The notes beneath the pieces were generated by a model. That model searched no databases, was not told the DNA's origin, and worked only from the letters and a program-made list of their open reading frames with translations. A stretch of 64,000 nucleotides of DNA from Nostoc carneum NIES-2107 (GTDB lineage: Bacteria; Cyanobacteriota; Cyanobacteriia; Cyanobacteriales; Nostocaceae): contig AP018180.1 in assembly GCA_002368155.1 (NCBI GenBank), positions 2,203,947 to 2,267,946 on the forward strand, in the 5' to 3' direction. The position numbers and the translations under genes were made by a program. Shown here piece by piece: positions 9,177 to 20,322 of this stretch (within the stretch, counting starts at the first letter, position 1; each line of letters begins with the position of its first letter).

Positions 9177-9690
9177 TTGACAGTTATATTGTCAAGCCAA
9201 TGGCATCATCTATCTGTGCAAGATGTCACTCGGCATTTAGAGACAAATTTAGAAACGGGTTTAACCTCTGCGGTTGCAGCACAAAAACGAGAGCGCTTTG
9301 GTGCTAACGAACTGAAGGGCAAACCAGGGAAAAGTCCATTGCTACGATTTCTCCTACAATTTAACTAACCGTTGCTGTACATCTTGTTGATTGCGGGAGC
9401 TATCAAGGCGTTTTTGGGACTGGTAAGGGTATTGTAGTGGCGATTGGAGAAACCACAGAAACCGGGCGGATTTCCCAACTCATGGAGCAAGGAACTAGCC
9501 TGAAAACTCCACTCACCCGCAAGTTTGATAAATTTAGCCGGACTTTGCTGTACATCATTTTAGGGATAGCAGCATTGATGTTTGCCGTTGGCTTGGGATA
9601 TGGCTACTCCTGGGGAGAAATGTTTGAAGCTGCGATCGCTTTTGCTGTGAGTGCCATTCCCGAAGGATTACCAGCAGTAGTTACAGTATT
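9177..9690 (+). pseudogene. Remnant of a P-type cation-transporting ATPase
   Basis: Frame one gives the cation-ATPase N-terminus: WHHLSVQDVTRHLETNLETG, then a stretch ending RFGANELKGKPGKSPLLRF and LLQFN. It is cut by TAA at 9366-9368 where the family normally has Gln (CAA to TAA), yet homology continues in the same frame as PLLYILLIAGAIKAFLG. Near 9417 it jumps frame to GTGKGIVVAIGETTETGRIS, skipping most of the actuator region. It then reads LMEQGTSLKTPLTRKFDKFS, two membrane helices and AIPEGLPAVVTV. At that point the sequence runs into TTACGAA tandem repeats, and the DKTGTLT phosphorylation site and everything beyond are missing. One nonsense change, one internal deletion with frameshift and a lost C-terminus make this a decayed gene. 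Confidence 0.85.
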
Positions 9691-9709
9691 ACGAATTACG
9701 AATTACGAA
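9689..9709. repeat. TTACGAA heptamer tandem repeat at the pseudogene breakpoint
   Basis: Three perfect TTACGAA units followed by TTACCAA. The repeat begins exactly where homology to the cation ATPase ends, suggesting that it marks the deletion junction. Confidence 0.7.
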
Positions 9710-9996
9710 TTACCAATTGGCATTAGAACCATTGTTACCACCAAAGTGACCTAGAACCCTTTTATAAGTCGGGTTTTAATTAAGAAATCAAGAACAGATC
9801 CTATCTAGGCTCTAGATAAACTCTCAGGATAGAACCACACATCTGACGAACAGTTTGTTTCTTGTTTTTCCCAAGGAACATAGCCTCAAAATAAGACTTG
9901 CGCTACCCAATGTCTCCCCTTTTTCAAAATAGGGGAGGCTTGGGGAGGCGTATTAACTGTTAACAGCTATCAAACCCAGAATTGAAGGATAGCACC

Positions 9997-10779
9997 ATGC
10001 CTGAATATCTGACCATCTCTACTTCAGATTTGATACATAGCCTCAAACTATCTTCTCAGATTCCTGATGTTGTCAACACTATCTTGTCTCGACAAATCAT
10101 TAACGATACGGCACAGGAAGCTGGGATTGAAGTTACAGAAGCACAATTACAAGAAGAAGGAGACAAACTCAGGTTAGATAAAAAACTCGTTACTGCAAAA
10201 GAAACTTGGGCTTGGTTAGATCAACACCATTTATCTGTTAAAGATTTTGAGGAATTAGTCTATAACAGCCTCATTGCTAAGAAGTTGGCGAATCATCTAT
10301 TTTCGGCTCAAGTCGAAAAGTTCTTTTATGACAACCGACTAGATTATGATGCTGCTGTTACCTACGAAGTCATCTTCGAGGATAGAGGCTTGGCTTTAGA
10401 ACTTTTTTATGCTCTGGAAGAAGAGGAAGTAACATTTCCAGAAATAGCTCGTTTATATATTGCAGATCCAGAACTGCGTCGTACTTATGGGTATCAAGGA
10501 GTGCGATACCGCAAAGATTTTCGTCCAGAAATTGCTGCTGCTGTATTTGCGAGTTATCCCCCAGGCATTCTCAAGCCAATTACAACACAAAAGGGTGTGT
10601 ATTTAGTTTGGCTAGAAGAAATAATTCAACCAGAGTTAAATGAGAACCTCCGGGAACAAATCATTAACAGACTTTTTTCTGTTTGGTTAAAAAAGCAAAT
10701 AGAAAGTAAAGCAATGATTACACAACTAAATTTAGATATAAATTTACGATTACAAGAAGAAGTACTTCAGCAAGCTTAG
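9997..10779 (+). CDS. SurA/PpiC-like peptidylprolyl isomerase at the head of the RiPP locus
   Basis: The 260-residue protein has an N-terminal SurA-type helical region (LSRQIINDTAQEAGIEVTEA, then helices up to about residue 120) and a C-terminal parvulin-like part (VTFPEIARLYIADPELRRTYG .. AAVFASYPPGILKPI .. KGVYLVWLEEI). Such isomerases aid proline isomerisation or chaperone secreted proteins. In cyanobacteria, relatives are often found beside HlyD/ABC peptide exporters, though no signal peptide is visible here and no exporter is in the window. The frame opens at TTG 9982, but GAAGGA at 9984-9989 is spaced for ATG 9997, which is preferred. A terminator-like hairpin follows, separating it from the precursor genes. 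Catalytic competence of the parvulin part cannot be judged by eye. Confidence 0.7.
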   Translation: MPEYLTISTSDLIHSLKLSSQIPDVVNTILSRQIINDTAQEAGIEVTEAQLQEEGDKLRLDKKLVTAKETWAWLDQHHLSVKDFEELVYNSLIAKKLANHLFSAQVEKFFYDNRLDYDAAVTYEVIFEDRGLALELFYALEEEEVTFPEIARLYIADPELRRTYGYQGVRYRKDFRPEIAAAVFASYPPGILKPITTQKGVYLVWLEEIIQPELNENLREQIINRLFSVWLKKQIESKAMITQLNLDINLRLQEEVLQQA

Positions 10780-10850
10780 TTTTTATTTTAGGTATTTGAT
10801 TCATATTTATTATGAATTAAAACCATCATATAAGCACAAAAATTTTATCG

Positions 10851-10890
10851 CCTGAGCAATGTAAATCTTTGCATTGTTCAGGTTTTACTG
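10851..10890 (+). terminator. Hairpin and T-rich tail after the isomerase gene
   Basis: CCTGAGCAATG (10851-10861) pairs with CATTGTTCAGG (10872-10882), 11 bp with one G-U pair, followed at once by TTTTACTGTATTTT. This has the layout of an intrinsic terminator and separates the isomerase gene from the first precursor. Confidence 0.7.
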
Positions 10891-10978
10891 TATTTTATTA
10901 GTATATAAACTATCAATATTTAAATAAAAAATGAGAAAATTTTGTGGATATTTTATATAGAAAATAGCGTAAATCCCC

Positions 10979-11006
10979 TTGACTTTTTCTGTAAATACTT
11001 TAATGT
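10979..11006 (+). promoter_or_regulatory. Possible promoter of the first precursor gene
   Basis: TTGACT (10979-10984) matches a -35 hexamer in five of six positions. TAATGT lies 16 bp downstream, with TATATA slightly further on as an alternative -10. About 75 bp of leader RNA would precede the ATG at 11081. Only the -35 is a good match. Confidence 0.3.
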
Positions 11007-11080
11007 ATATATATGAGCAAAAAACAAATTGCTCTGAAAAAAATCCAGATTTAGACTAGATAATTCTCAGGAGAAAAGAA

Positions 11081-11326
11081 ATGATTATTTCTGATTTGAA
11101 CCTTTTGGAAACTGTTGAATCATCTGAAATTGTTGGTGGAAAATTCACTAGTATCTACTTCAACGAGTACTACAATATCTATAAAGATATTGATGCAAAA
11201 GCAAATGTAAAAGGTAATATTGCTACTGCTGATGCGAGTGCTTATGGTAAAAATACTTTGACTCAAGTCTTTACAACGACTACTCCATACTCTTCTCAAA
11301 GCAGTTCTGTTTCTGTTAGCGACTGA
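11081..11326 (+). CDS. Putative RiPP precursor 1 (DLSYLE-type leader, GG site)
   Basis: An 81-residue product with a strong AGGAGA ribosome-binding site. Residues 1-20, MIISDLNLLETVESSEIVGG, form a short acidic leader ending in GG and sharing the I-x-D-L-x-x-L-E spacing with the other small proteins here. The 61-residue remainder is rich in Asn, Tyr, Ala, Ser and Thr (IATADASAYGKNTLTQVF) and ends with a Ser-rich tail (SSQSSSVSVSD). It has no cysteine, so lanthionine or disulfide chemistry is excluded. The core resembles precursor 3 (11% shared motifs cannot be computed by eye, but A-x-ADA-x-A..G-x-NT-x-T and SSS-x-SV recur in both). A perfect 15-bp hairpin follows. The precursor assignment is inferred from leader, size and context. 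Confidence 0.65.
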   Translation: MIISDLNLLETVESSEIVGGKFTSIYFNEYYNIYKDIDAKANVKGNIATADASAYGKNTLTQVFTTTTPYSSQSSSVSVSD

Positions 11327-11361
11327 TAATTAAAGTTGAATAGTTAAAGCTATTTAATCAA

Positions 11362-11397
11362 AATTATTCAGCTAGAGTAATTTCTAGCTGAATAATT
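11362..11397 (+). terminator. Perfect 15-bp hairpin after precursor 1
   Basis: AATTATTCAGCTAGA (11362-11376) and TCTAGCTGAATAATT (11383-11397) pair without mismatch around a 6-nt loop. No T-run follows, so it may act as a transcript stabiliser or partial terminator rather than a full intrinsic terminator. Confidence 0.6.
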
Positions 11398-11568
11398 CAA
11401 AATGCTTTAACCTGAGCAAGAATAACTAACTAAATCCGATTTAGTTATAAGTTTATTTATAAGAGTAGAAATAGGTTAAGCAATTAAATAGCTCTATCTT
11501 AAAACCGTAAGGTCAAAAACTGAATAAAAACAATTTTTGGATCTCTTTTAATGGCTTTTAGGAGTCAT

Positions 11569-11880
11569 ATGAATAGCTTAAAAATTCAGAATCTCAGCTT
11601 TTGCGAAACAGTAAGTGGTAGCCAAGTTCAAGGCGGAGTTTCAGAAGCTCCAAATCAGGAACTCGATTTGCTAGACTGGTTAACAAAAAACATTCCCGGA
11701 TTTGAGAAACAAACTTCAGAACAAAAAGAAGAATATTTGCTCGAAACTTTTGGCGATCGCAATAATGAAAATTACGGATATCGGGCTATAAGTCCAGATG
11801 GAAGAAAAGTTATAGGTGGAGCAACTGGACAAATAAACAACGTGAATTATGCCGTATCTTTTGCAAGAAGCTCCATTTAG
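11569..11880 (+). CDS. Putative RiPP precursor 2 (related leader, GG site)
   Basis: The frame opens at 11551, but AGGAG at 11560-11564 places the start at ATG 11569, giving 103 residues. Residues 1-23 (MNSLKIQNLSFCETV, then SGSQVQGG) follow the same leader plan (I-x-N-L-S-F-x-E, seven to eight residues, V-x-GG). The 80-residue remainder contains the acidic helical LDLLDWLTKNIPGFEKQ and EEYLLETFGDRN, then GYRAISPDGRKVIGGATGQ. It is more soluble-protein-like than the other cores. The SPDG-(R)K-VI motif recurs in the next gene. No family is recognised. It could be a precursor, or a small accessory protein that has kept a leader. Confidence 0.55.
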   Translation: MNSLKIQNLSFCETVSGSQVQGGVSEAPNQELDLLDWLTKNIPGFEKQTSEQKEEYLLETFGDRNNENYGYRAISPDGRKVIGGATGQINNVNYAVSFARSSI

Positions 11881-11901
11881 TATTTGACAGCAGGATTAAA
11901 T

Positions 11902-11930
11902 GCAATCACATTATAGTGATTGCTATTTTT
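11902..11930 (+). terminator. Intrinsic terminator after precursor 2
   Basis: GCAATCAC (11902-11909) pairs with GTGATTGC (11916-11923), perfect over 8 bp with a 6-nt loop, and is followed by TATTTTTCT. This is the standard arrangement of an intrinsic terminator. Confidence 0.75.
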
Positions 11931-11958
11931 CTCATTTCTAACAATGGGTGTTAAACCA

Positions 11959-12156
11959 ATGACTCAGCAGAAAGTTATAGTGAAACGCATAGTATCACCT
12001 GATGGCAAAGTAATCGCTGAATCAAAAAGTGTAGTTTCAACATCTGGTAATGGTGAAGATGAGATTAGTCAAAGTGTTTCAGTAAGCGTCTCATCTTGTA
12101 ATAGATCCAGCAGTTACGCAAAATCTAGTTCTTCTCATCATTCTGCCATTGATTGA
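11959..12156 (+). CDS. Ser-rich small protein in the RiPP locus
   Basis: Sixty-five residues from ATG 11959, with in-frame ATG 11944 as an alternative; GGGTG eight bases ahead favours 11959. The N-terminus is basic and strand-like (MTQQKVIVKRIVSPDGKVIA), followed by SKSVVSTSGNGEDEISQ and a Ser-rich tail with one Cys (SVSVSVSSCNRSSSYAKSSS). It lacks the DLSYLE-GG leader. The SVSVS/SSS tail resembles the tails of precursors 1 and 3, and SPDGKVI resembles precursor 2. It ends 34 bp before precursor 3 and is probably cotranscribed with it. It could be an unmodified structural peptide, a leaderless precursor or an adaptor; no assignment is made. Confidence 0.55.
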   Translation: MTQQKVIVKRIVSPDGKVIAESKSVVSTSGNGEDEISQSVSVSVSSCNRSSSYAKSSSSHHSAID

Positions 12157-12190
12157 ATTTAGTCGTCTCAAAAATTATCATGAGGTAGGT

Positions 12191-12514
12191 GTGAGCCATT
12201 TATTAATCATCTCTGACTTAAGTTATTTACAGCCAATTAACGATAGCAGTGTTGTAGTGGGTGGCTATGTTTACACTGCTACAATTACCTCAACAAAAAG
12301 TGGCTTTGGATATGCTAATGCCGATGCAGGTGCAGTTGCGATTGGTGAGAATACCTATACTAATACTCAAACAAAGACGACTGTTCAAAACGTAGGTAGC
12401 CTTAACTATAGTAGCTCCGATGCAAACGCCACAGCCTATGCAAATACTAGAAACCAAACTGCTTCATCTAAAAGTAGTAGTTCTTCCATTTCAGTTTATG
12501 TAACTAACCCTTAA
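12191..12514 (+). CDS. Putative RiPP precursor 3 (DLSYL leader, GG site)
   Basis: The frame is open from 12149, but GTG 12191 is preceded by GAGGTAGGT and yields a leader aligned with its neighbours: LLIISDLSYLQPINDSSV, then VVGG (residues 4-25). This gives 107 residues with an 82-residue core. The core is low in charge, lacks Cys and is built of small and polar residues (YANADAGAVAIGENTYTNTQ, TKTTVQNVG, SSSDANATAYANT) before a Ser-rich end (SSKSSSSSISVYVTNP). It looks like a longer relative of precursor 1. The alternating Ala/Thr/Asn pattern may favour beta structure. It lies 42 bp before the acyltransferase-TPR gene, so the two are probably on one transcript. Confidence 0.65.
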   Translation: MSHLLIISDLSYLQPINDSSVVVGGYVYTATITSTKSGFGYANADAGAVAIGENTYTNTQTKTTVQNVGSLNYSSSDANATAYANTRNQTASSKSSSSSISVYVTNP

Positions 12515-12556
12515 TCATCTCACTTCATCAGAAGATTATTGCTGAGGTAAAACGAT

Positions 12557-14299
12557 ATGCAGATTCACAAAATTGATAAGTTTGAAACATTTAAAAAAAT
12601 TAGAGAAAATTGGGATTCTGTATATACGGCTGATCCTCAAGCTCATTTCTTCTTATCTTGGGTTTGGTTATCTGGATGGTTACCTCAGACTCATGAGCCG
12701 TGGTTTATATTAGCTGCTAAACCAGATACCGAAGATTCATCTTATATTGCCTTTTTACCTCTAAAAATTTTATTAAAACACCATAATGAAGGCAGATTTG
12801 ACCCTGAAATCTGCATGGTAGGAAATAGCATGGCAGATTATACAGGACTTATTTGCCTACCAGGTTATGAAGAAAAGGTAATTCCTGCTTTTGTTACTTA
12901 CATTCAGCAACAGTTTGTCTGGTCTAGTTTCGATGTAAAAAGTATTTTAGCAACAGATACAAGGATGTCTCTGTTATTGAGGAGTTTTTCTCCAGATAGT
13001 TTTGAACTTACTCAACTTCGCATTCAAAGCGTCGATGAAAAACATCCCGATCATTATATTGCCCCTTATATCTCATTACCAAATGACTGGGATAACTATC
13101 TGCAAAACTACGTTGGTTCCAATACTCGTCAAAAAATTAGGCGTTTTTTAAGGAAAATTGAAACTTCTGATGAGTTTTATATCACCCACGTTAACGCAGA
13201 GAATGTGGAATCTCAGATAGAAATACTACTCAAGTTTTGGGAGTCGAGATGGAAGAAGCAATTTCAAAGCCGCTTTGACACAACCATAAATTACTATCGG
13301 CTGATTTTACATCATTGCTTTAAAAATAATTGTCTATATCTTCCAGTTCTGTGGCAAGGAAAGAGGCCTTTAGGAGCGATCGCCAATTTTGTTGATGTTC
13401 AGCAAAAATCTATGCTATTTGTCATCACAGGTCGCGATGAAAGCTTTAAAAATCCCCCACCTGGGCTGATTCTCCATGCTGACGCGATTCGATATGCTAT
13501 TCAAAATGGATTTAAAATTTACGACTTTTTAATGGGGAATGAAGAATATAAATATTCTTTTGGCACTAAAGAGCGCCATATTCAGCATATCGTAGTCAAA
13601 GACAAGAATTACCAAAATAGGCAACAAAATGTTCAGGAAATGCTTCCTTTAGCGCTTCAGTTAACTGTTCGAGATCATCGATCAAACCGACTCACAAAAG
13701 CTGAGTCAGGATATCGTCAGATTTTAGCATTACAGCCAAATCACCCAGAAGCATTGTATGGACTAGGTGTGTTGATGAGACAAAAGGATGAGTACCAAAC
13801 TGCTGAAATTATATTTAAAAATCTGCTTCAGGTACAGCCAAATTCCATCAAAGCTTTATTTAGCTTGGGGAATTTATACCAAATTCAAAATCAATTATCC
13901 GAAGCGATCGCCCTCTATAATCAAATCTTAACTCTACAACCAGATGCGATCGCAGCATACAATAACCTGGGCTATGCTCTCCAACAGCAAGGGAAATGGG
14001 AAGATGCGATCGCCTGCTATCAAAAAGCTTTAGAACTCCAGCCTGATTGCTTAGAAGCGGAGGTTAACCTAGCAAATGCGCTTCATGCTCAAGGAAAACT
14101 CTCCCTAGACAAACAGGCTCATTACGCAGCGCTGAACAACGATTTAGGCTGCAAATGTAGACAGCTGGGCGATTTCCAAAATGCGATCGCTTACTTTCAA
14201 CAATCCATTTCTCTCAAGCCAGACTTAAAAGCAGCACAGCATAATTTGGAACAGCTGCTTCAAGAACAAAGTGAGCGTAAAACTCTCATCTGCGCCTAG
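12557..14299 (+). CDS. GNAT/FemAB-like acyltransferase fused to TPR repeats
   Basis: A 580-residue two-part protein. Residues 1 to about 355 match the plan of the BcsL/CelD (Acetyltransf_6, FemAB-like GNAT) group: the N-terminal HFFLSWVWLSGWLPQ, a central SNTRQKIRRFLRKIE, KFWESRWKKQFQ, then YLPVLWQGKRPLGAIANFV and GLILHADAIRYAIQNGFKIY with DFLMGNEEYKYSFG. Residues about 375-575 hold at least five TPR units (ALQPNHPEALYGLGVLMRQK, DAIAAYNNLGYALQQQGKWE, and similar). GNAT-like enzymes that acylate RiPP side chains are known (selidamide pathways), so peptide acylation is a reasonable guess. The TPR part could hold the leader or a partner. An acyl-donor role is inferred only; a cell-surface or sugar acyltransferase is the alternative. 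Confidence 0.75.
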   Translation: MQIHKIDKFETFKKIRENWDSVYTADPQAHFFLSWVWLSGWLPQTHEPWFILAAKPDTEDSSYIAFLPLKILLKHHNEGRFDPEICMVGNSMADYTGLICLPGYEEKVIPAFVTYIQQQFVWSSFDVKSILATDTRMSLLLRSFSPDSFELTQLRIQSVDEKHPDHYIAPYISLPNDWDNYLQNYVGSNTRQKIRRFLRKIETSDEFYITHVNAENVESQIEILLKFWESRWKKQFQSRFDTTINYYRLILHHCFKNNCLYLPVLWQGKRPLGAIANFVDVQQKSMLFVITGRDESFKNPPPGLILHADAIRYAIQNGFKIYDFLMGNEEYKYSFGTKERHIQHIVVKDKNYQNRQQNVQEMLPLALQLTVRDHRSNRLTKAESGYRQILALQPNHPEALYGLGVLMRQKDEYQTAEIIFKNLLQVQPNSIKALFSLGNLYQIQNQLSEAIALYNQILTLQPDAIAAYNNLGYALQQQGKWEDAIACYQKALELQPDCLEAEVNLANALHAQGKLSLDKQAHYAALNNDLGCKCRQLGDFQNAIAYFQQSISLKPDLKAAQHNLEQLLQEQSERKTLICA

Positions 14300-14361
14300 T
14301 GTTAACTTCTGATAACTGATAAGTGCTGTCATACTACCTGCTTTTAGGAGGTAATTAAAAT

Positions 14362-14787
14362 ATGTCTTTATCAATTTTAGAAAAAGTTAAATGCTTCTTG
14401 ATTCGGCTGGTCAAAGATGAAAATTTCCGCACTCAACTCATGAGTGAAAAAGCTGAGGAAGTTAAAGCAGTATTAGAAAATGGCGGTTATATATTCTCGA
14501 AAGAAGAATTTGAAACAGCTACTATTAAAATCCTAGAATTAAAAGAAATAGGTCAGTTTGAAGACCTCAACGAACAAGAATTAATCGGAGCTATTGGTGG
14601 TTTGACAATTATCGAGGAGCGGTTTAAATATTGGCCCCCTAAAGGTTACCCTCGACCAATACCCAAGCCTTATCCAATTCCTTTTCCTAAACCAATAGAT
14701 CCACAACCTCAACCTCTATATGGCATAGTCATTGATCCACCTGTACAAGCCTTATATGGAGTCGTTGTACCACAAGAACTAGAGTAA
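14362..14787 (+). CDS. Nif11-leader RiPP precursor with two LYG motifs (spliceotide-type)
   Basis: A 141-residue precursor with a strong AGGAGG ribosome-binding site. Residues 1-80 form a Nif11-type leader: FLIRLVKDENFRTQL, then EEVKAVLENGGYIFSKEEFE, ending QELIGAIGG at 80. The 61-residue core is proline-rich (GYPRPIPKPYPIPFPKP) and then carries LYG at 119-121 and 131-133 in the repeated frame P-LYGIVI-DPPVQA-LYGVVV-P. XYG is the known recognition site of PlpX-type spliceases, radical SAM enzymes that excise a tyramine unit. A radical SAM/SPASM gene sits 540 bp downstream. The core has no Cys. Assignment as a splicease substrate is inference from the motif plus context, but the leader family is clear. 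Confidence 0.85.
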   Translation: MSLSILEKVKCFLIRLVKDENFRTQLMSEKAEEVKAVLENGGYIFSKEEFETATIKILELKEIGQFEDLNEQELIGAIGGLTIIEERFKYWPPKGYPRPIPKPYPIPFPKPIDPQPQPLYGIVIDPPVQALYGVVVPQELE

Positions 14788-14797
14788 AGCTAATTCA

Positions 14798-14866
14798 GGT
14801 TGTCAAAGGTCAAGAGCCCAGAGTCAAAGGCTATCTTGGACTGTGGACTTTTAACTCTTGACAACC
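14798..14866. repeat. Inverted repeat with TTGAC-rich loop between precursors
   Basis: GGTTGTCAA (14798-14806) pairs with TTGACAACC (14858-14866). The inside is made of GTCAAGAG/CTCTTGAC-type units like those at 32221-32302 and 47030-47077, so it can fold further. Its position just after the Nif11 precursor suggests that it may terminate or attenuate transcription. Confidence 0.5.
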
Positions 14867-14947
14867 CTAACACTATAATATTTGATATGGACGCGTATCA
14901 ACTGAACTTTTAAATATCAAACCAAAAAGCTTGTCCAAGGAAGACCG

Positions 14948-15286
14948 ATGCTCTCAATCCAAGATTTGTCTTATTTAGAAAATGCTCCAGAAAACCAACT
15001 AATTGCAGGTGGCGCAAGTGCGATGATCGGAGCTATTGCTTCAGCTGTTGGTGATGCTAGTCTTACTTATACTAATACCGACCTCAACTTGAAAGTTAAA
15101 AGGAATGGTGGTGTTAAATTAAAAGGGGTTGGAGTAGCTTTCGCATCTGGTGATGATTATGATGCTGATGTCTATTACTATCTAGAGGGCTTTGATAAAG
15201 TCAAGGTAAAAACTATTAATAAATATGGCCCAAATTATGAGTTAGAGATTGTGAAGATTAGAGCAATTGATAAACCAAACAAATAG
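14948..15286 (+). CDS. Putative RiPP precursor 4 (DLSYLE leader, GG site) next to the radical SAM gene
   Basis: A 112-residue product with AAGGAAG ahead of its ATG. Leader residues 1-22 (MLSIQDLSYLENAPENQL, then IAGG) are the best match to the shared plan. The 90-residue remainder begins ASAMIGAIASAVGDASL, a hydrophobic small-residue stretch like a class II bacteriocin or membrane helix, then becomes strand-like and charged (LKVKRNGGVKLKGVGVAFAS, DADVYYYLEGFDKVKVKTI). It has no Cys and no XYG, so it is not an evident splicease substrate. Thirty-nine bp separate it from the radical SAM gene, implying cotranscription. It may be a precursor, or the leader may only direct export. Confidence 0.65.
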   Translation: MLSIQDLSYLENAPENQLIAGGASAMIGAIASAVGDASLTYTNTDLNLKVKRNGGVKLKGVGVAFASGDDYDADVYYYLEGFDKVKVKTINKYGPNYELEIVKIRAIDKPNK

Positions 15287-15325
15287 CAAAATTGAGTAAC
15301 TCTCTGAAATTTTTAGGGGTGAACC

Positions 15326-16573
15326 ATGACATACCGCCGCAAAAGTTATGCAGTTTGGGAAATCACCTTAAAATGCAATTTAGCTTGTAGTCATTGTGGT
15401 TCCCGCGCTGGACATGAACGCAGCCAAGAACTGTCCACAGAGGAAGCTTTGGATCTGGTGAGACAGATGGCAGAAGTGGGGATTAAAGAAGTTACCCTCA
15501 TCGGTGGGGAAGCCTTTTTGCGTCCCGACTGGCTGGAAATAGCAAAAGCCATTACCGAGGCGGGGATGCTCTGCGGAATGACTACCGGTGGTTATGGTAT
15601 TTCTTTAGAAACTGCACAAAAAATGAAAACGGCGGGGATACGTACTGTGTCGGTTTCTATTGATGGCTTAGAAGCAACTCACGATCGCCTACGGGGAAGA
15701 AAAGGCTCATGGAAGTATGCGTTTAAAACCATGAGTCATCTGCGAACAGCTGGTATTGCTTTTGGTTGCAATACCCAAATCAACCGCTTATCAGCGCCAG
15801 AGTTTCCCCAGATTTATGAATGCATACGTGATGCAGGCGCTCGTGCTTGGCAAATTCAGTTGACTGTCCCAATGGGAAATGCAGCCGATAATGCAGATAT
15901 CCTCCTCCAACCTTATGAACTGCTAGATATTTACCCGATGATTGCTCGTGTAGTTCGTCGTGCTTATGAAGAAGGGGTACAAGTTCAGGCGGGAAATAAC
16001 ATTGGTTACTACGGCCCCTATGAAAGGCTGTTACGGGGACGGGGTAACGAGCATGAATTCTCATTTTGGCAAGGTTGCGGTGCTGGACTTTCTACCTTAG
16101 GAATAGAAGCTGACGGAGCGATTAAAGGTTGTCCTTCTCTACCGACAACAGCCTATACAGGTGGTAATATCAGAGACCGTTCTCTCAAAGATATAGTTGA
16201 GAATACAGAGGAATTGCGTTTCAATTTGGGAGCAGGAACAAGCCATCTGTGGGGTTTTTGTCAAAGCTGTGAATTTGCAGAACTTTGTCGTGGGGGTTGC
16301 AGTTGGACTGCTCACGTTTTCTTTGATAAGAGAGGTAACAATCCTTACTGTCATCATCGCGCGCTTGTCCATCAAGAACGAGGTTTGCGGGAGAGAGTAT
16401 TACCGAAAGTCAAAGCTCAAGGACTCCCTTTTGATAATGGAGAATTTGAGTTAATTGTCGAGCCGATAGATGCTCCTTTACCAAAAAATGATCCGTTAAA
16501 GTTTAGTGCAGATCGCATTCAATGGTCAGAAAATTGGCAGACTGAATCTAGTTTATTGATGACGGTTGACTGA
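15326..16573 (+). CDS. Radical SAM/SPASM peptide maturase (candidate splicease)
   Basis: A 415-residue enzyme preceded by AGGGGTG. The radical SAM cluster motif CNLACSHC gives C17, C21 and C24, and GGE (60-62) follows. A complete SPASM domain is visible: C251 and C269, then C312-x2-C315-x5-C321-x3-C325, then C342. It would bind one catalytic and two auxiliary [4Fe-4S] clusters. The opening SYAVWEITLKCNLACSHCGS and EVTLIGGEAFLRPDW places it with peptide-modifying maturases of the nif11-class/PlpX and Y-X10-GDL type. With the LYG-bearing Nif11 precursor nearby, tyramine excision (splicease) is the leading hypothesis. The alternative is a C-C or epimerisation chemistry on one of the other cores. 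Confidence 0.85.
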   Translation: MTYRRKSYAVWEITLKCNLACSHCGSRAGHERSQELSTEEALDLVRQMAEVGIKEVTLIGGEAFLRPDWLEIAKAITEAGMLCGMTTGGYGISLETAQKMKTAGIRTVSVSIDGLEATHDRLRGRKGSWKYAFKTMSHLRTAGIAFGCNTQINRLSAPEFPQIYECIRDAGARAWQIQLTVPMGNAADNADILLQPYELLDIYPMIARVVRRAYEEGVQVQAGNNIGYYGPYERLLRGRGNEHEFSFWQGCGAGLSTLGIEADGAIKGCPSLPTTAYTGGNIRDRSLKDIVENTEELRFNLGAGTSHLWGFCQSCEFAELCRGGCSWTAHVFFDKRGNNPYCHHRALVHQERGLRERVLPKVKAQGLPFDNGEFELIVEPIDAPLPKNDPLKFSADRIQWSENWQTESSLLMTVD

Positions 16574-16670
16574 TGATGGTTGACTGTAAAATTATTGTGT
16601 AAACAGGGAATAGGTACAAAGAAATAATACTAATTCAAATAATGTTTGCGACACATCAATATATGCTAGA

Positions 16671-16691
16671 GGGCAAGGCAATGCCTTGCCC
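16671..16691. repeat. Palindromic interspersed repeat (GGGCAAGGCA)
   Basis: GGGCAAGGCA and TGCCTTGCCC form a perfect 10-bp dyad around one base. The flank AATAATGTTTGCGACA matches that upstream of 2207. This is a recurring spacer element in the window. Confidence 0.7.
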
Positions 16692-16746
16692 CTACAATAT
16701 GTCGTATGCTTTTTGTAAATGATTATTGAATTACAGAACAATAATT

Positions 16747-16932
16747 ATGGTAAAAAATTCAGAGAAGATAACAATACAAGAAGCAGCAATTGGCGAGGAG
16801 CTATTAACAGATGATCTGCAAAATATACATCTGCTGCCTCGTTCTGCTTGGCCTAGTCAAATCACTTATTTGAAAACGCTTTTGAAAACAAAGCAAACTT
16901 TAGATCGTCGGTATTATAGGAATACTATTTGA
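16747..16932 (+). CDS. Small protein downstream of the radical SAM enzyme
   Basis: Sixty-one residues from ATG 16747 (the frame is open from TTG 16726). The sequence is soluble and charged: ITIQEAAIGEELLTDDLQ, then IHLLPRSAWPSQITYLKTLL and a basic end (KQTLDRRYYRNTI). No family is recognised. It follows the maturase by 173 bp, in the place where a small splicease partner (PlpY in the Pleurocapsa system) might be expected, but no similarity is claimed. There is no strong ribosome-binding site. A spurious ORF or a truncated gene is possible. Confidence 0.4.
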   Translation: MVKNSEKITIQEAAIGEELLTDDLQNIHLLPRSAWPSQITYLKTLLKTKQTLDRRYYRNTI

Positions 16933-17073: not shown

Positions 17074-17100
17074 GTAGGATGCGTTATTAACGCATCCTAC
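17074..17100. repeat. 27-bp palindrome abutting the M16 stop codon
   Basis: GTAGGATGCGTTA and TAACGCATCCTAC pair perfectly around a single T. The last base is also the first base (on the plus strand) of the stop codon of the minus-strand peptidase gene. On the minus strand it would form a stem directly after translation ends, and may serve as its 3' end. Related forms with a longer centre occur at 51260 and 58308. Confidence 0.75.
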
Positions 17101-18629
17101 TAGTTTTTGGCTTGTGGTTGTACAGGGGGAATCGTTACGTCAATAGGCGTTACCTGCGTTGCTAATTGTGTTAATGGCGGTTGAATAGCGGTTTGATTTC
17201 CCACCACCAGAGTTACTAGGTTTTCTGGTTTGAGGTATTTTCTTGCTACTCGTTGTACATCGGCGGTGGTTGTGGCTGCTACTGCTTTTTGATAGCGAAA
17301 TAAGAAATCAGCAGGATAGCCGTAATATTCATATCGCATCAACCGCGAGATAGTTTGATTAGGATCTTCAAAGTTAAAAACAAAAGAATTGAGTGTAGAT
17401 TCCTTTGCAAAAGCCAATTCTTGTGGGGTAACTCTTTGAGTTTGCAAGCGCTTAATTTCAGCTTGTAAGGATTTCACGAACTGCACAGTAGTTTGCGATC
17501 GCGTTTGTCCTCCAGCAATGAAAACTCCGGGATAATCGTAACGGGGACTCCATTGTCCGTATACTGAATAAGCTAAACCTTGACGCGATCGCACTTCATT
17601 AAATAAGCGTCCGCCAAAGCCATTCAATACCCCATTGACTACATCCAATGCTGGATAGTCTACACTGTCTAGCTTTCCTCCCAAATGCCCAATGTAAATA
17701 TTACTTTGGGTTAATTGCGGTTGATTGACAAAAAATACTCCGTTAGTATTCGCTTGGGATACTTGCGGTAATTGGGGTTTAGTCAGGTTGGGGTTAGGTT
17801 TCCAATCGCCCAATTTTGCTTGAATGAGCGATCGCATTTTTTGGGCATCAAAATCACCTATGATGCCCAAAATTATATTGTTGGGGTAGAAATATTGCTG
17901 ATAAAACTTGATTAAATCCTCACGGGAAATCTTATCGATAGTTGCATACTCTGTGGTGCGAGCATAGGGGCTATCTTTCCCATAGATTAATTTGCGAAAT
18001 TCTCGACCAGCTATAGAATTGGGATTATCATTGCGGCGAGCAATACTACCCTTCTCCTGGGTTTTCGCTAAATCTAACTTTTCTTGAGCAAATACTGGCT
18101 CTCGCAGCACCTCAGTAAATAACCCAAACACTGTTTCTAAATCTTCTGTCAGTGCTTCAAAGCTAGCGCTACCAGAAGTGTCACCAATCCCAGTTTCTAC
18201 CGAAGCGGCGCGTTGTTCCAACAATTCGTTGAGTTCATCAGCCGAATGCTTTTTAGTTCCACCAGTTCGCATGACCTCACCTGTAAAGTCAGCCAAGCCA
18301 ACTTTATCTGCAGGTTCTAAGCGGCTTCCTGTCCGCACCAAAGCTGTACCGCCTACTAATGGTAACTCGTGATCCTCCATTAAATAGACAACCATGCCAT
18401 TTTGCAGCACAAAGCGTTCATACTTGGGTAACTTAATCTCAGGTAATGGCGGTAGCTGTAACTCTGTGTAATGCTTGGCTGCTGCTGTCGCCGCCTGAGA
18501 AAAGTTAAAAGTAAAAAGTACAAAGGCAAAAGCAATTACCACAGCAGAAATAAACTTCTTACCATTGGGGATTTTGAACGCCACTTGTTTTTTACCCTTT
18601 ACCTGATACCTATGTATATCTTTCTTCAT
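17100..18629 (-). CDS. M16-family peptidase-like protein lacking the zinc motif
   Basis: A 509-residue exported member of the M16 (pitrilysin/processing peptidase) family. A long N-region leads to a signal helix ending FNFSQAATAAAKHY. The M16 core follows from LPKYERFVLQNGMVVYLMED. Where catalytic relatives have HxxEH, this one reads GLADFTGEVMRTGGTKKHSA, so the zinc ligands are missing. The second half (GIIGDFDAQKMRSLIQAKL, RSRQGLAYSVYGQWSPRYDY) is normal. Such inactive subunits pair with an active partner to form the closed chamber, and the gene directly upstream encodes that partner (67 bp gap, same strand). Role: peptide or signal-peptide turnover outside the cytoplasmic membrane. Confidence 0.85.
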   Translation of the reverse strand: MKKDIHRYQVKGKKQVAFKIPNGKKFISAVVIAFAFVLFTFNFSQAATAAAKHYTELQLPPLPEIKLPKYERFVLQNGMVVYLMEDHELPLVGGTALVRTGSRLEPADKVGLADFTGEVMRTGGTKKHSADELNELLEQRAASVETGIGDTSGSASFEALTEDLETVFGLFTEVLREPVFAQEKLDLAKTQEKGSIARRNDNPNSIAGREFRKLIYGKDSPYARTTEYATIDKISREDLIKFYQQYFYPNNIILGIIGDFDAQKMRSLIQAKLGDWKPNPNLTKPQLPQVSQANTNGVFFVNQPQLTQSNIYIGHLGGKLDSVDYPALDVVNGVLNGFGGRLFNEVRSRQGLAYSVYGQWSPRYDYPGVFIAGGQTRSQTTVQFVKSLQAEIKRLQTQRVTPQELAFAKESTLNSFVFNFEDPNQTISRLMRYEYYGYPADFLFRYQKAVAATTTADVQRVARKYLKPENLVTLVVGNQTAIQPPLTQLATQVTPIDVTIPPVQPQAKN

Positions 18630-18696
18630 CTCTTCCCTTCGCGTCCTTTGCGTACTACTCTGCGAGAAGCCGCTTCGCGGCTACGCGGTTAGTTTC

Positions 18697-20268
18697 CTAT
18701 GCTTGCTTTGATAACAACTTGCCAATTGTGCGATTTTCGGCTGTAAACGATGCTTTCGCTACACGTTGAATATCAGCAGTTTTTACCGCCGCAATTTGAT
18801 CCAACTGCTTAAACAAATTCCGCCAAGAGCCAGTTTTCACTTCATATTCCAATAACTGCTGCGCCATTCCCATATTAGAATCGAGGGTACGCAACAAATC
18901 GGCTCTAGCTTTGGTTTTGACACGCTGCAATTCTGCATCTGTTACAGGCTCAGTTTTCAATTTCTCAATTTCTGTTCGTAAAGCCGCTGCCAAGTCATCA
19001 ACTGTATGACCAGGTGCTGTCAGAGCATAAAATAACATCAGGTTTGGGTATTTATCGCCAGGAAAACCACTAAAACCTTGGGCAGTCAAAGCCACACGCT
19101 GTTGTTCTACCAAAGATTTATACAACCGTGAAGTCCGCCCATTACTTAATAAACTAGCAATGATTTCATACACTGCATTATCGGGATGGGTAATTGCTGG
19201 ACGGTGATAGCCTTCTAAATACCAAGGTTGCGAAGGTAGTTGTACAGTTACCTCACGCGTTTGCTTTTGTGCTGGTTCTGTAGGGATTTGCTCAACCGCT
19301 TTGGGTTTTGCAGGGAAACGTCCAAAGTAAATTTGTGCCAGTCTTTTCACTTCTGCTGGGTTCACATCACCCACAACTGCGATCGCTAAATTGCTGGGTA
19401 CATAATAAGTGTTATAGAACTTTTGCACATCTTCAGGTGTCAAATTGCGGATATCTTGGTCATAGCCAATGACCGGTCGTCTGTAGGGATGGACTTTATA
19501 GGCTGCATCGATAAACTTTTCGATCATCAAGCCGATGGGTGAATTTTCTACCCGCAAACGCCTTTCTTCTAAAATCACCTCTTTTTCTTTATAAAACTCG
19601 CGGCTGAGTACAGGTTCAAGAAATCGCTCTGATTCTAGAGACATCCACAATTCCAACTTATTGGCTGGGAAGCTATAAAAATAACGAGTCGCCTCCGTGG
19701 AAGTATTGGCATTTAAACCCACACCTCCCGCTTGTTCGACAATTCGCCCCATTTCATTTTGCTTGGAGAGCTTGGTTGCTTGCAATTCTACTTGCTCAAA
19801 CTCAGCTTGCAACTTGGCAAGTTCATCCTTTTTACCCTGAGCTTTCGCGGCTCTAATTTGAGCATCTAACTGTTCTAGGCGTTCTAATAATGGTTTCTCA
19901 GCATTGTAGTCTGTTGTACCAATGCGTTTCGTACCTTTAAAGGCCAAATGCTCTAAAAAGTGGGCTACGCCTGTTTTTCCGTCTGGCTCATCCACACCAC
20001 CCACATCTGCGTAGGTAAGAAAGGAAACTACAGGTGCTTGATGGCGTTCTAAAACAATGAACTTTAGCCCATTATCTAGACGAAACTCCGTCAACTGCTT
20101 AATTACGCGATCCAAATAAGGTTGAATCGAACTCGGAGTTTTGCTAGGTGGCTGTACTTTTGGCGCTGGAGGTGCGGTTTGAGTTTGCGCTAAAGCAACT
20201 TCTGGTAGCACGCTACTCCAGAGCATAGTCAGCGCTAATAAAGTAGCAAACAATCGATAAAGTATCAT
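18697..20268 (-). CDS. M16-family zinc peptidase with HxxEH
   Basis: A 523-residue exported peptidase. The start at 20268 has GAAGG five to six bases ahead and gives a good signal peptide (ILYRLFATLLALTMLWSSVL, then PEVALAQ); the frame stays open a further 54 bp upstream. The core contains the inverted zinc motif HFLEHLAFKG with a downstream Glu (region around EATRYFYSFPANKLELWMSL), a long charged helix insertion (LEQLDAQIRAAKAQGKKDEL), and the R/Y substrate-clamp region of the second half (YHRPAITHPDNAVYEI). It degrades oligopeptides, probably in the periplasm. It is the promoter-proximal gene of a two-gene unit with the non-catalytic subunit. Confidence 0.9.
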   Translation of the reverse strand: MILYRLFATLLALTMLWSSVLPEVALAQTQTAPPAPKVQPPSKTPSSIQPYLDRVIKQLTEFRLDNGLKFIVLERHQAPVVSFLTYADVGGVDEPDGKTGVAHFLEHLAFKGTKRIGTTDYNAEKPLLERLEQLDAQIRAAKAQGKKDELAKLQAEFEQVELQATKLSKQNEMGRIVEQAGGVGLNANTSTEATRYFYSFPANKLELWMSLESERFLEPVLSREFYKEKEVILEERRLRVENSPIGLMIEKFIDAAYKVHPYRRPVIGYDQDIRNLTPEDVQKFYNTYYVPSNLAIAVVGDVNPAEVKRLAQIYFGRFPAKPKAVEQIPTEPAQKQTREVTVQLPSQPWYLEGYHRPAITHPDNAVYEIIASLLSNGRTSRLYKSLVEQQRVALTAQGFSGFPGDKYPNLMLFYALTAPGHTVDDLAAALRTEIEKLKTEPVTDAELQRVKTKARADLLRTLDSNMGMAQQLLEYEVKTGSWRNLFKQLDQIAAVKTADIQRVAKASFTAENRTIGKLLSKQA

Positions 20269-20322
20269 AGATACCTTCTTTGAAGAATATAAAATTGCTG
20301 GCAAGTAACTGGGTTGATTCAT

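Follow-up and report, generated by a model that had tools for sequence, protein, structure and literature searches.

A candidate spliceotide cassette in Nostoc carneum NIES-2107 with two predicted splice sites in a single Nif11-leader precursor

The window, by which we mean the whole stretch of DNA that was analyzed, comprises 64,000 nucleotides of the Nostoc carneum NIES-2107 genome. Between positions 9982 and 16932 it carries the following features, which include a Nif11-leader precursor gene and the gene for a radical SAM/SPASM maturase (numbers such as L034 denote loci of relatives).

9982-10779, plus strand: PpiC/rotamase-like protein, encoded after exporter genes in relatives; Rotamase matches just below the cut-offs
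11081-11326, plus strand: small protein with a DLNLLE...GG leader, of the same accessory family as 12149-12514 and 14948-15286
11551-11880, plus strand: accessory small protein; homologues in L034, L035, L064, and L037
11920-12156, plus strand: accessory Ser-rich small protein; homologues in L034, L035, L064, L040, L052, and L026
12149-12514, plus strand: small protein with a DLSYLQ...GG leader, of the accessory family
12557-14299, plus strand: GNAT-type acyltransferase domain (PF13480) fused to TPR repeats
14362-14787, plus strand: Nif11-leader precursor, 141 aa, over the PF07862 cut-off
14602-14715, plus strand: start of the precursor core with its proline-rich part, of variable length among kin, before the first splice site
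14716-14724, plus strand: predicted splice site 1, Leu119-Tyr120-Gly121
14752-14760, plus strand: predicted splice site 2, Leu131-Tyr132-Gly133
14948-15286, plus strand: non-Nif11 small protein with a DLSYLE...GG leader, between precursor and maturase
15326-16573, plus strand: predicted splicease, a radical SAM/SPASM maturase and PlpX homologue, 415 aa, assigned by TIGR04103, identity, cysteines, and tree
16726-16932, plus strand: PlpY-like partner, 68 aa as listed, with the motif LLPRSAWPSQITYLKTLLKTKQTLD

The gene content, homology, motifs, and synteny of this cassette are direct observations. The gene order from 11081 to 16932 is identical in Nostoc linckia FACHB-104 (L034) and is partly found in Calothrix NIES-4101 (L064) and in L037, in which no homologue of the 11920 or 14948 gene was found. 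L034, L064, and Calothrix membranacea FACHB-236 (L035) all have a similar gene order and an LYGIV...DPPVQALYGVV core; they differ in the length of the proline-rich part, L034 keeps an HlyD-like gene beside the PpiC-like gene, and the GNAT-TPR gene, which is also present in L034 and L037, is absent at that place in L064.

The sequence AGGAGG lies at 14346-14351, 10 bases 5' of the precursor ATG. The precursor consists of a leader (aa 1 to 80) with GG at its end and a 61-aa core (aa 81 to 141), which reads ...GYPRPIPKPYPIPFPKPIDPQPQP-LYGIVI-DPPVQA-LYGVVV-PQELE; the two LYG motifs in near-duplicate frames around DPPVQA, to which the initial annotation had drawn attention, are indeed present in ORF 14362-14787. 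The precursor scored 25.2 bits against Pfam PF07862 (Nif11; cut-off, 23.8 bits) and 29.5 bits against the Nif11 leader model TIGR03798, 3 bits short of the cut-off of 32.3, a shortfall that we count against the splice reading. When the core was shuffled, at least two LYG motifs arose in 12 of 100,000 sequences and at least two YG motifs in 1,552 of 100,000; we regard conservation as stronger evidence for two sites than these counts. Both xYG sites are kept in all nine aligned rows of the window's kin: the first-site tripeptide is LYG in five, MYG in three, and HYG in one, and across both sites the X residue is Leu, Met, or, once, His. The proline-rich stretch is common to the window's sub-clade, and it varies in length from the window to L034 and L035 with no change in either LYG motif. 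The dN/dS values of the precursor against L034 and L035 are 0.12 to 0.14. The two motifs lie 12 residues apart, which is also the commonest spacing among the listed xYG sites of relatives, and they have the flanks that are usual among relatives, a P or A ahead of X and a V or I following G.

Directly after the precursor, a strong RNA hairpin was observed at 14798-14866 (-38.4 kcal/mol for a 113-base stretch; z, -4.8). By eye, no hairpin was seen at the same place in L034 or L035, and it is therefore not read as a conserved attenuator.

The splicing out of a tyrosine-derived piece from a peptide backbone is a known, unusual chemistry that yields protease-blocking groups. The system with which the window is best compared is PlpA2/PlpA3-PlpX-PlpY of Pleurocapsa sp. 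PCC 7319. We infer that L118/L123 is the plp locus of that strain because both PlpA splice tags printed in PMC10533398 occur there, namely, PIRPLYGLPI and AVAA-x-YGVVFP, the latter with Met in core position five, consistent with the name PlpA3-M5G. The two PlpA precursors encoded in L123 share 34 to 37% identity with the window precursor. Of the 16 constructs with a tag in FtsZ that are tabulated in PMC10533398, 2 were accepted, so xYG alone is no proof of splicing.

The maturase ORF is open, and it encodes the sole protein over the TIGR04103 cut-off (725 bits) in this 9.36-Mb genome; such a gene was found in 21 of the 386 Cyanobacteriota genomes drawn. The window maturase scored 802 bits and PlpX 824 bits, the two proteins are identical at 319 of 412 aligned residues (77%), and all 12 PlpX cysteines, those of the radical SAM CxxxCxxC motif and the SPASM domain, are kept. 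Its second-best NCBIfam match was TIGR03913 (rad_SAM_trio, maturase of GDL-motif peptides), at 431 bits, under that model's cut-off of 591.75. A maximum-likelihood tree was built from 85 rows, which comprised 78 of the 79 named loci described below (L062, whose maturase ORF was missed by the search pattern, was left out), five relatives below the cut-off, the window, and PlpX. The window and PlpX fell within one 80-row clade (support, 99/99), outside which lay the five sub-cut-off relatives; the window grouped with L034 and L035 (100/100), whose maturases are 97% identical to its own, the PlpX branch was longish, and the bootstrap was not fully settled. Against these two loci, the dN/dS of the maturase is about 0.10. 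The profile comparison with PlpX and TIGR04103 that the initial annotation had proposed thus had a positive outcome, and its interpretation of the maturase as a PlpX-type splicease is supported at the level of homology. One feature that we count against the splice reading is a gap of four residues after position 303, which is common to the window, L034, and L035; the residues are present in PlpX, L037, and L064.

The locus as first described, a precursor with a nearby maturase, was borne out in those two genes, but the small PlpY-like gene at 16726-16932 had been overlooked. Its likely start is the ATG at 16747, giving 61 aa. Each of the 79 named loci has a small ORF with the C-terminal motif of its product; in 76 of these the ORF is on the same strand, between -150 and +600 bases from the located maturase end, and of the other three, two have maturase ends that were not located and one has its ORF 1,006 bases away. 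PlpY of L123 (56 aa) is encoded directly after PlpX and matches a profile built without it at 26 bits, the E-values being those of a one-sequence search; its identity to the window ORF is weak (32% over 50 residues). This weak similarity and the fast evolution of the PlpY-like gene (dN/dS, 0.69 against L034 and 0.40 against L035) are points that we count against the splice reading. Its predicted structure (mean pLDDT, 68) contains one confident helix, at the C terminus, and is uninformative as to whether PlpY-type proteins are truncated RREs.

The wider distribution of xYG was assessed in a single scan of the named genome collection, which gave 175 relatives, of which 79 distinct loci were kept. 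The leader profile used was seeded by ORFs picked partly for YG, and the leader parts alone were modeled. Distinct, same-strand Nif11-like ORFs of 80 to 250 aa were counted, and Nif11-profile matches outside this length range, on the opposite strand, or with duplicate sequences were dropped beforehand, which left 118 ORFs in the 79 loci. An xYG motif occurs after residue 60 in 115 of the 118 (one motif in 42 ORFs, two in 60, three in 11, and four in 2); two sites are therefore usual, since 73 of 118 precursors have at least two, and the window precursor is typical in this respect. The X residue is Leu at 94 and Met at 54 of the 203 sites (148 together). Of the 79 loci, 74 hold Nif11-like ORFs of this kind; the leader profile found none in L062, L066, L067, L069, and L085. 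In a control sample of 31 Nif11 loci, taken from among the matches listed and with splicease presence judged within a 3-kb stretch, YG was present in 11 of 11 loci near a splicease versus 1 of 20 away from one, most of these 20 being short Nif11 ORFs that have hardly any core or none, which makes the control weak; the sole YG-bearing exception, L141, has a splicease-type leader score. These comparisons support the view that xYG in a Nif11 core goes with the TIGR04103 enzyme across relatives. L047 (4533-6265) and L049 (3317-4996) hold, next to the usual two-site precursor, additional Nif11 precursors whose cores are rich in Asp and carry one or two xYG motifs.

The gene between the precursor and the maturase had been taken for another precursor, a view that we do not retain: neither Pfam nor NCBIfam gave a Nif11 match for ORF 14948-15286, which belongs to the DLxYLE...GG leader family. 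As a splicease substrate it was judged unlikely, given this lack of a Nif11 match and a single KYGPN, which is kept in L034 and L035 and absent in the other six aligned relatives. Among the 203 xYG sites, Lys stands at X in one, and Pro directly follows YG in none. The predicted mature part of the protein is all beta (mean pLDDT, 84, with the first 14 residues low), and a comparison of the model with the PDB gave no match at an E value of 0.001 or better. The DLxYLE-leader proteins have Ala/Ser/Thr-rich bodies, and those of the window (11081-12514 and 14948-15286), L034-L052, and L064 have no Pfam or NCBIfam match over the cut-off. Nothing in the analysis pointed to their being spliced, and the strings SDLNYLE, SDLSYLE, and LPRSAW were not found in the literature searched.

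By a loose regular expression, DLxYLE occurs at 17 of 21 splicease loci in the window's sub-clade (window counted) versus 1 of 59 others. In the N. carneum genome the family profile matches just ORFs 11081 and 12149, and in the phylum matches were found in 28 of 386 genomes. A role of the family as a splicease-specific partner was considered and rejected, since 19 of these 28 genomes are without a TIGR04103 match. A PpiC- or GNAT/TPR-like stretch lies close to the DLxYLE gene in 11 of 19 loci examined, two of the 11 being in splicease genomes. Because the family occurs in genomes without TIGR04103, often near PpiC or GNAT genes, these data suggest that the splicease module was added to an otherwise separate cluster for the export of small proteins, one that is present without a splicease in other cyanobacteria.

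In L064, L041, and L044, genes recognized by eye as encoding an ABC exporter and an HlyD-type protein precede the PpiC-like gene. The best matches in the N. carneum genome to the L064 exporter pair (94% and 79% identity) lie 25 to 30 kb upstream of the PpiC-like gene on the opposite strand, the exporter, HlyD-like, and HTH genes being at C1:2183893-2189105, and the HlyD/HTH segment of L034 aligns to this region in reverse. The simplest reading is that an inversion apparently split the exporter genes from the PpiC end of the cluster. That the exporter is no longer adjacent counts against the reading of the locus as a splice cassette; its ORFs are open (1,016 and 520 aa). Near the presumed breakpoint, at 9177-9754, two short ORFs resemble, by eye, pieces of a P-type ATPase. 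On the other side, at 17100-20322, are two adjacent minus-strand genes whose products we take to resemble M16-type peptidases; the first of them also follows the cassette in L034. A passage in a review describes C39-ABC exporters as cutting Nif11 leaders at the double glycine and serving spliceotides (PMC10885120).

Like the Plp system, the window locus has a Nif11 leader, an xYG core (LYG and MYG in Plp), a TIGR04103 radical SAM/SPASM enzyme, and a small PlpY-type partner directly after it; the Plp system has an ABC exporter nearby, whereas here the exporter is displaced. The window further differs in having two LYG motifs in one core behind a proline-rich stretch, an extra gene between precursor and maturase, and a setting among DLxYLE-leader small proteins, and no epimerase gene was noticed by eye on the map of 9982-16932. 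Taken together, these comparisons make it very probable that the locus is a complete spliceotide cassette whose product would be spliced twice and carry two alpha-keto-beta-homoleucine residues. On the model of the PlpXY literature, the radical SAM enzyme of PlpX type and its PlpY-type helper would receive the core from the Nif11 leader. They would take a tyramine equivalent (C8H9NO, 135.07 Da) out of each Leu-Tyr-Gly and rejoin the backbone, leaving alpha-keto-beta-homoleucine. Two splices would lower the mass by 270.14 Da, so that the 61-aa core, cut after GG, would go from 7,031.84 to 6,761.71 Da (monoisotopic). By analogy, the putative double-glycine ABC exporter 25 to 30 kb upstream would cut after GG and export the product, which may act as a protease inhibitor.

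It could be argued that a single LYG is spliced in the native product, most likely the second, and that the first is a relic or spacer. In two members of the window's sub-clade, L045 and L046 (the latter with AYS), the first site is lost and the second kept, and precursors with one xYG exist (the 42 ORFs noted above). We nevertheless consider this reading unlikely, because both sites persist in all nine aligned kin, most precursors in the survey have two or more, and PlpXY is reported in a review to splice a precursor more than once (PMC10373908). A cassette in decay, in which the enzyme and precursor remain and production or export of the peptide has ceased, would account for the displaced exporter, the fast-changing PlpY-like gene, and the apparent broken P-type ATPase pieces that adjoin the cluster; it is improbable given that every cassette ORF and both exporter ORFs are open and that dN/dS is low for both maturase and precursor.

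The maturase might also lie within TIGR04103 and catalyze a different radical reaction on the precursors of this sub-clade. Its score of 802 bits is below the 815 to 853 bits of the other intact over-cut-off genes of the phylum draw, and to our knowledge PlpX is the only one of the enzymes compared that has been tested, a point that speaks for such a reaction. Against it stand the retained cysteines, the 77% identity to PlpX, the kept PlpY partner, and the LYG motifs with their family-usual flanks, and we regard it as very improbable.

The reading that we prefer, a doubly spliced product, has precedents in print. The same review passage states that XYG can direct several splices within one precursor and that such spliced products inhibit proteases (PMC10373908), and a metagenome study already uses spliceotide as one of its cluster categories (PMC11837572); the locus is therefore a sound addition to a described family. 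It adds a clear and testable two-site candidate substrate with its own enzyme pair, which suits the question of splicease processivity and order, and the picture of the locus has been corrected by the addition of the PlpY partner and the removal of the supposed second precursor. More speculatively, and with only a slim chance of being right in our estimation, the product may be a bivalent protease inhibitor, in which two alpha-keto-beta-homoleucine warheads would sit at a fixed short spacing at the end of a rigid stalk of polyproline, with the coexported, beta-rich DLxYLE-leader proteins as carrier or partner.

Two further observations concern spliceases elsewhere among the relatives. In L027 (G251), the TIGR04103 maturase gene has three internal stop codons beside an open Nif11 xYG precursor, and this splicease is probably broken. 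C. membranacea FACHB-236 carries two different spliceases, one in the window's sub-clade (L035) and one in the larger group (L084).
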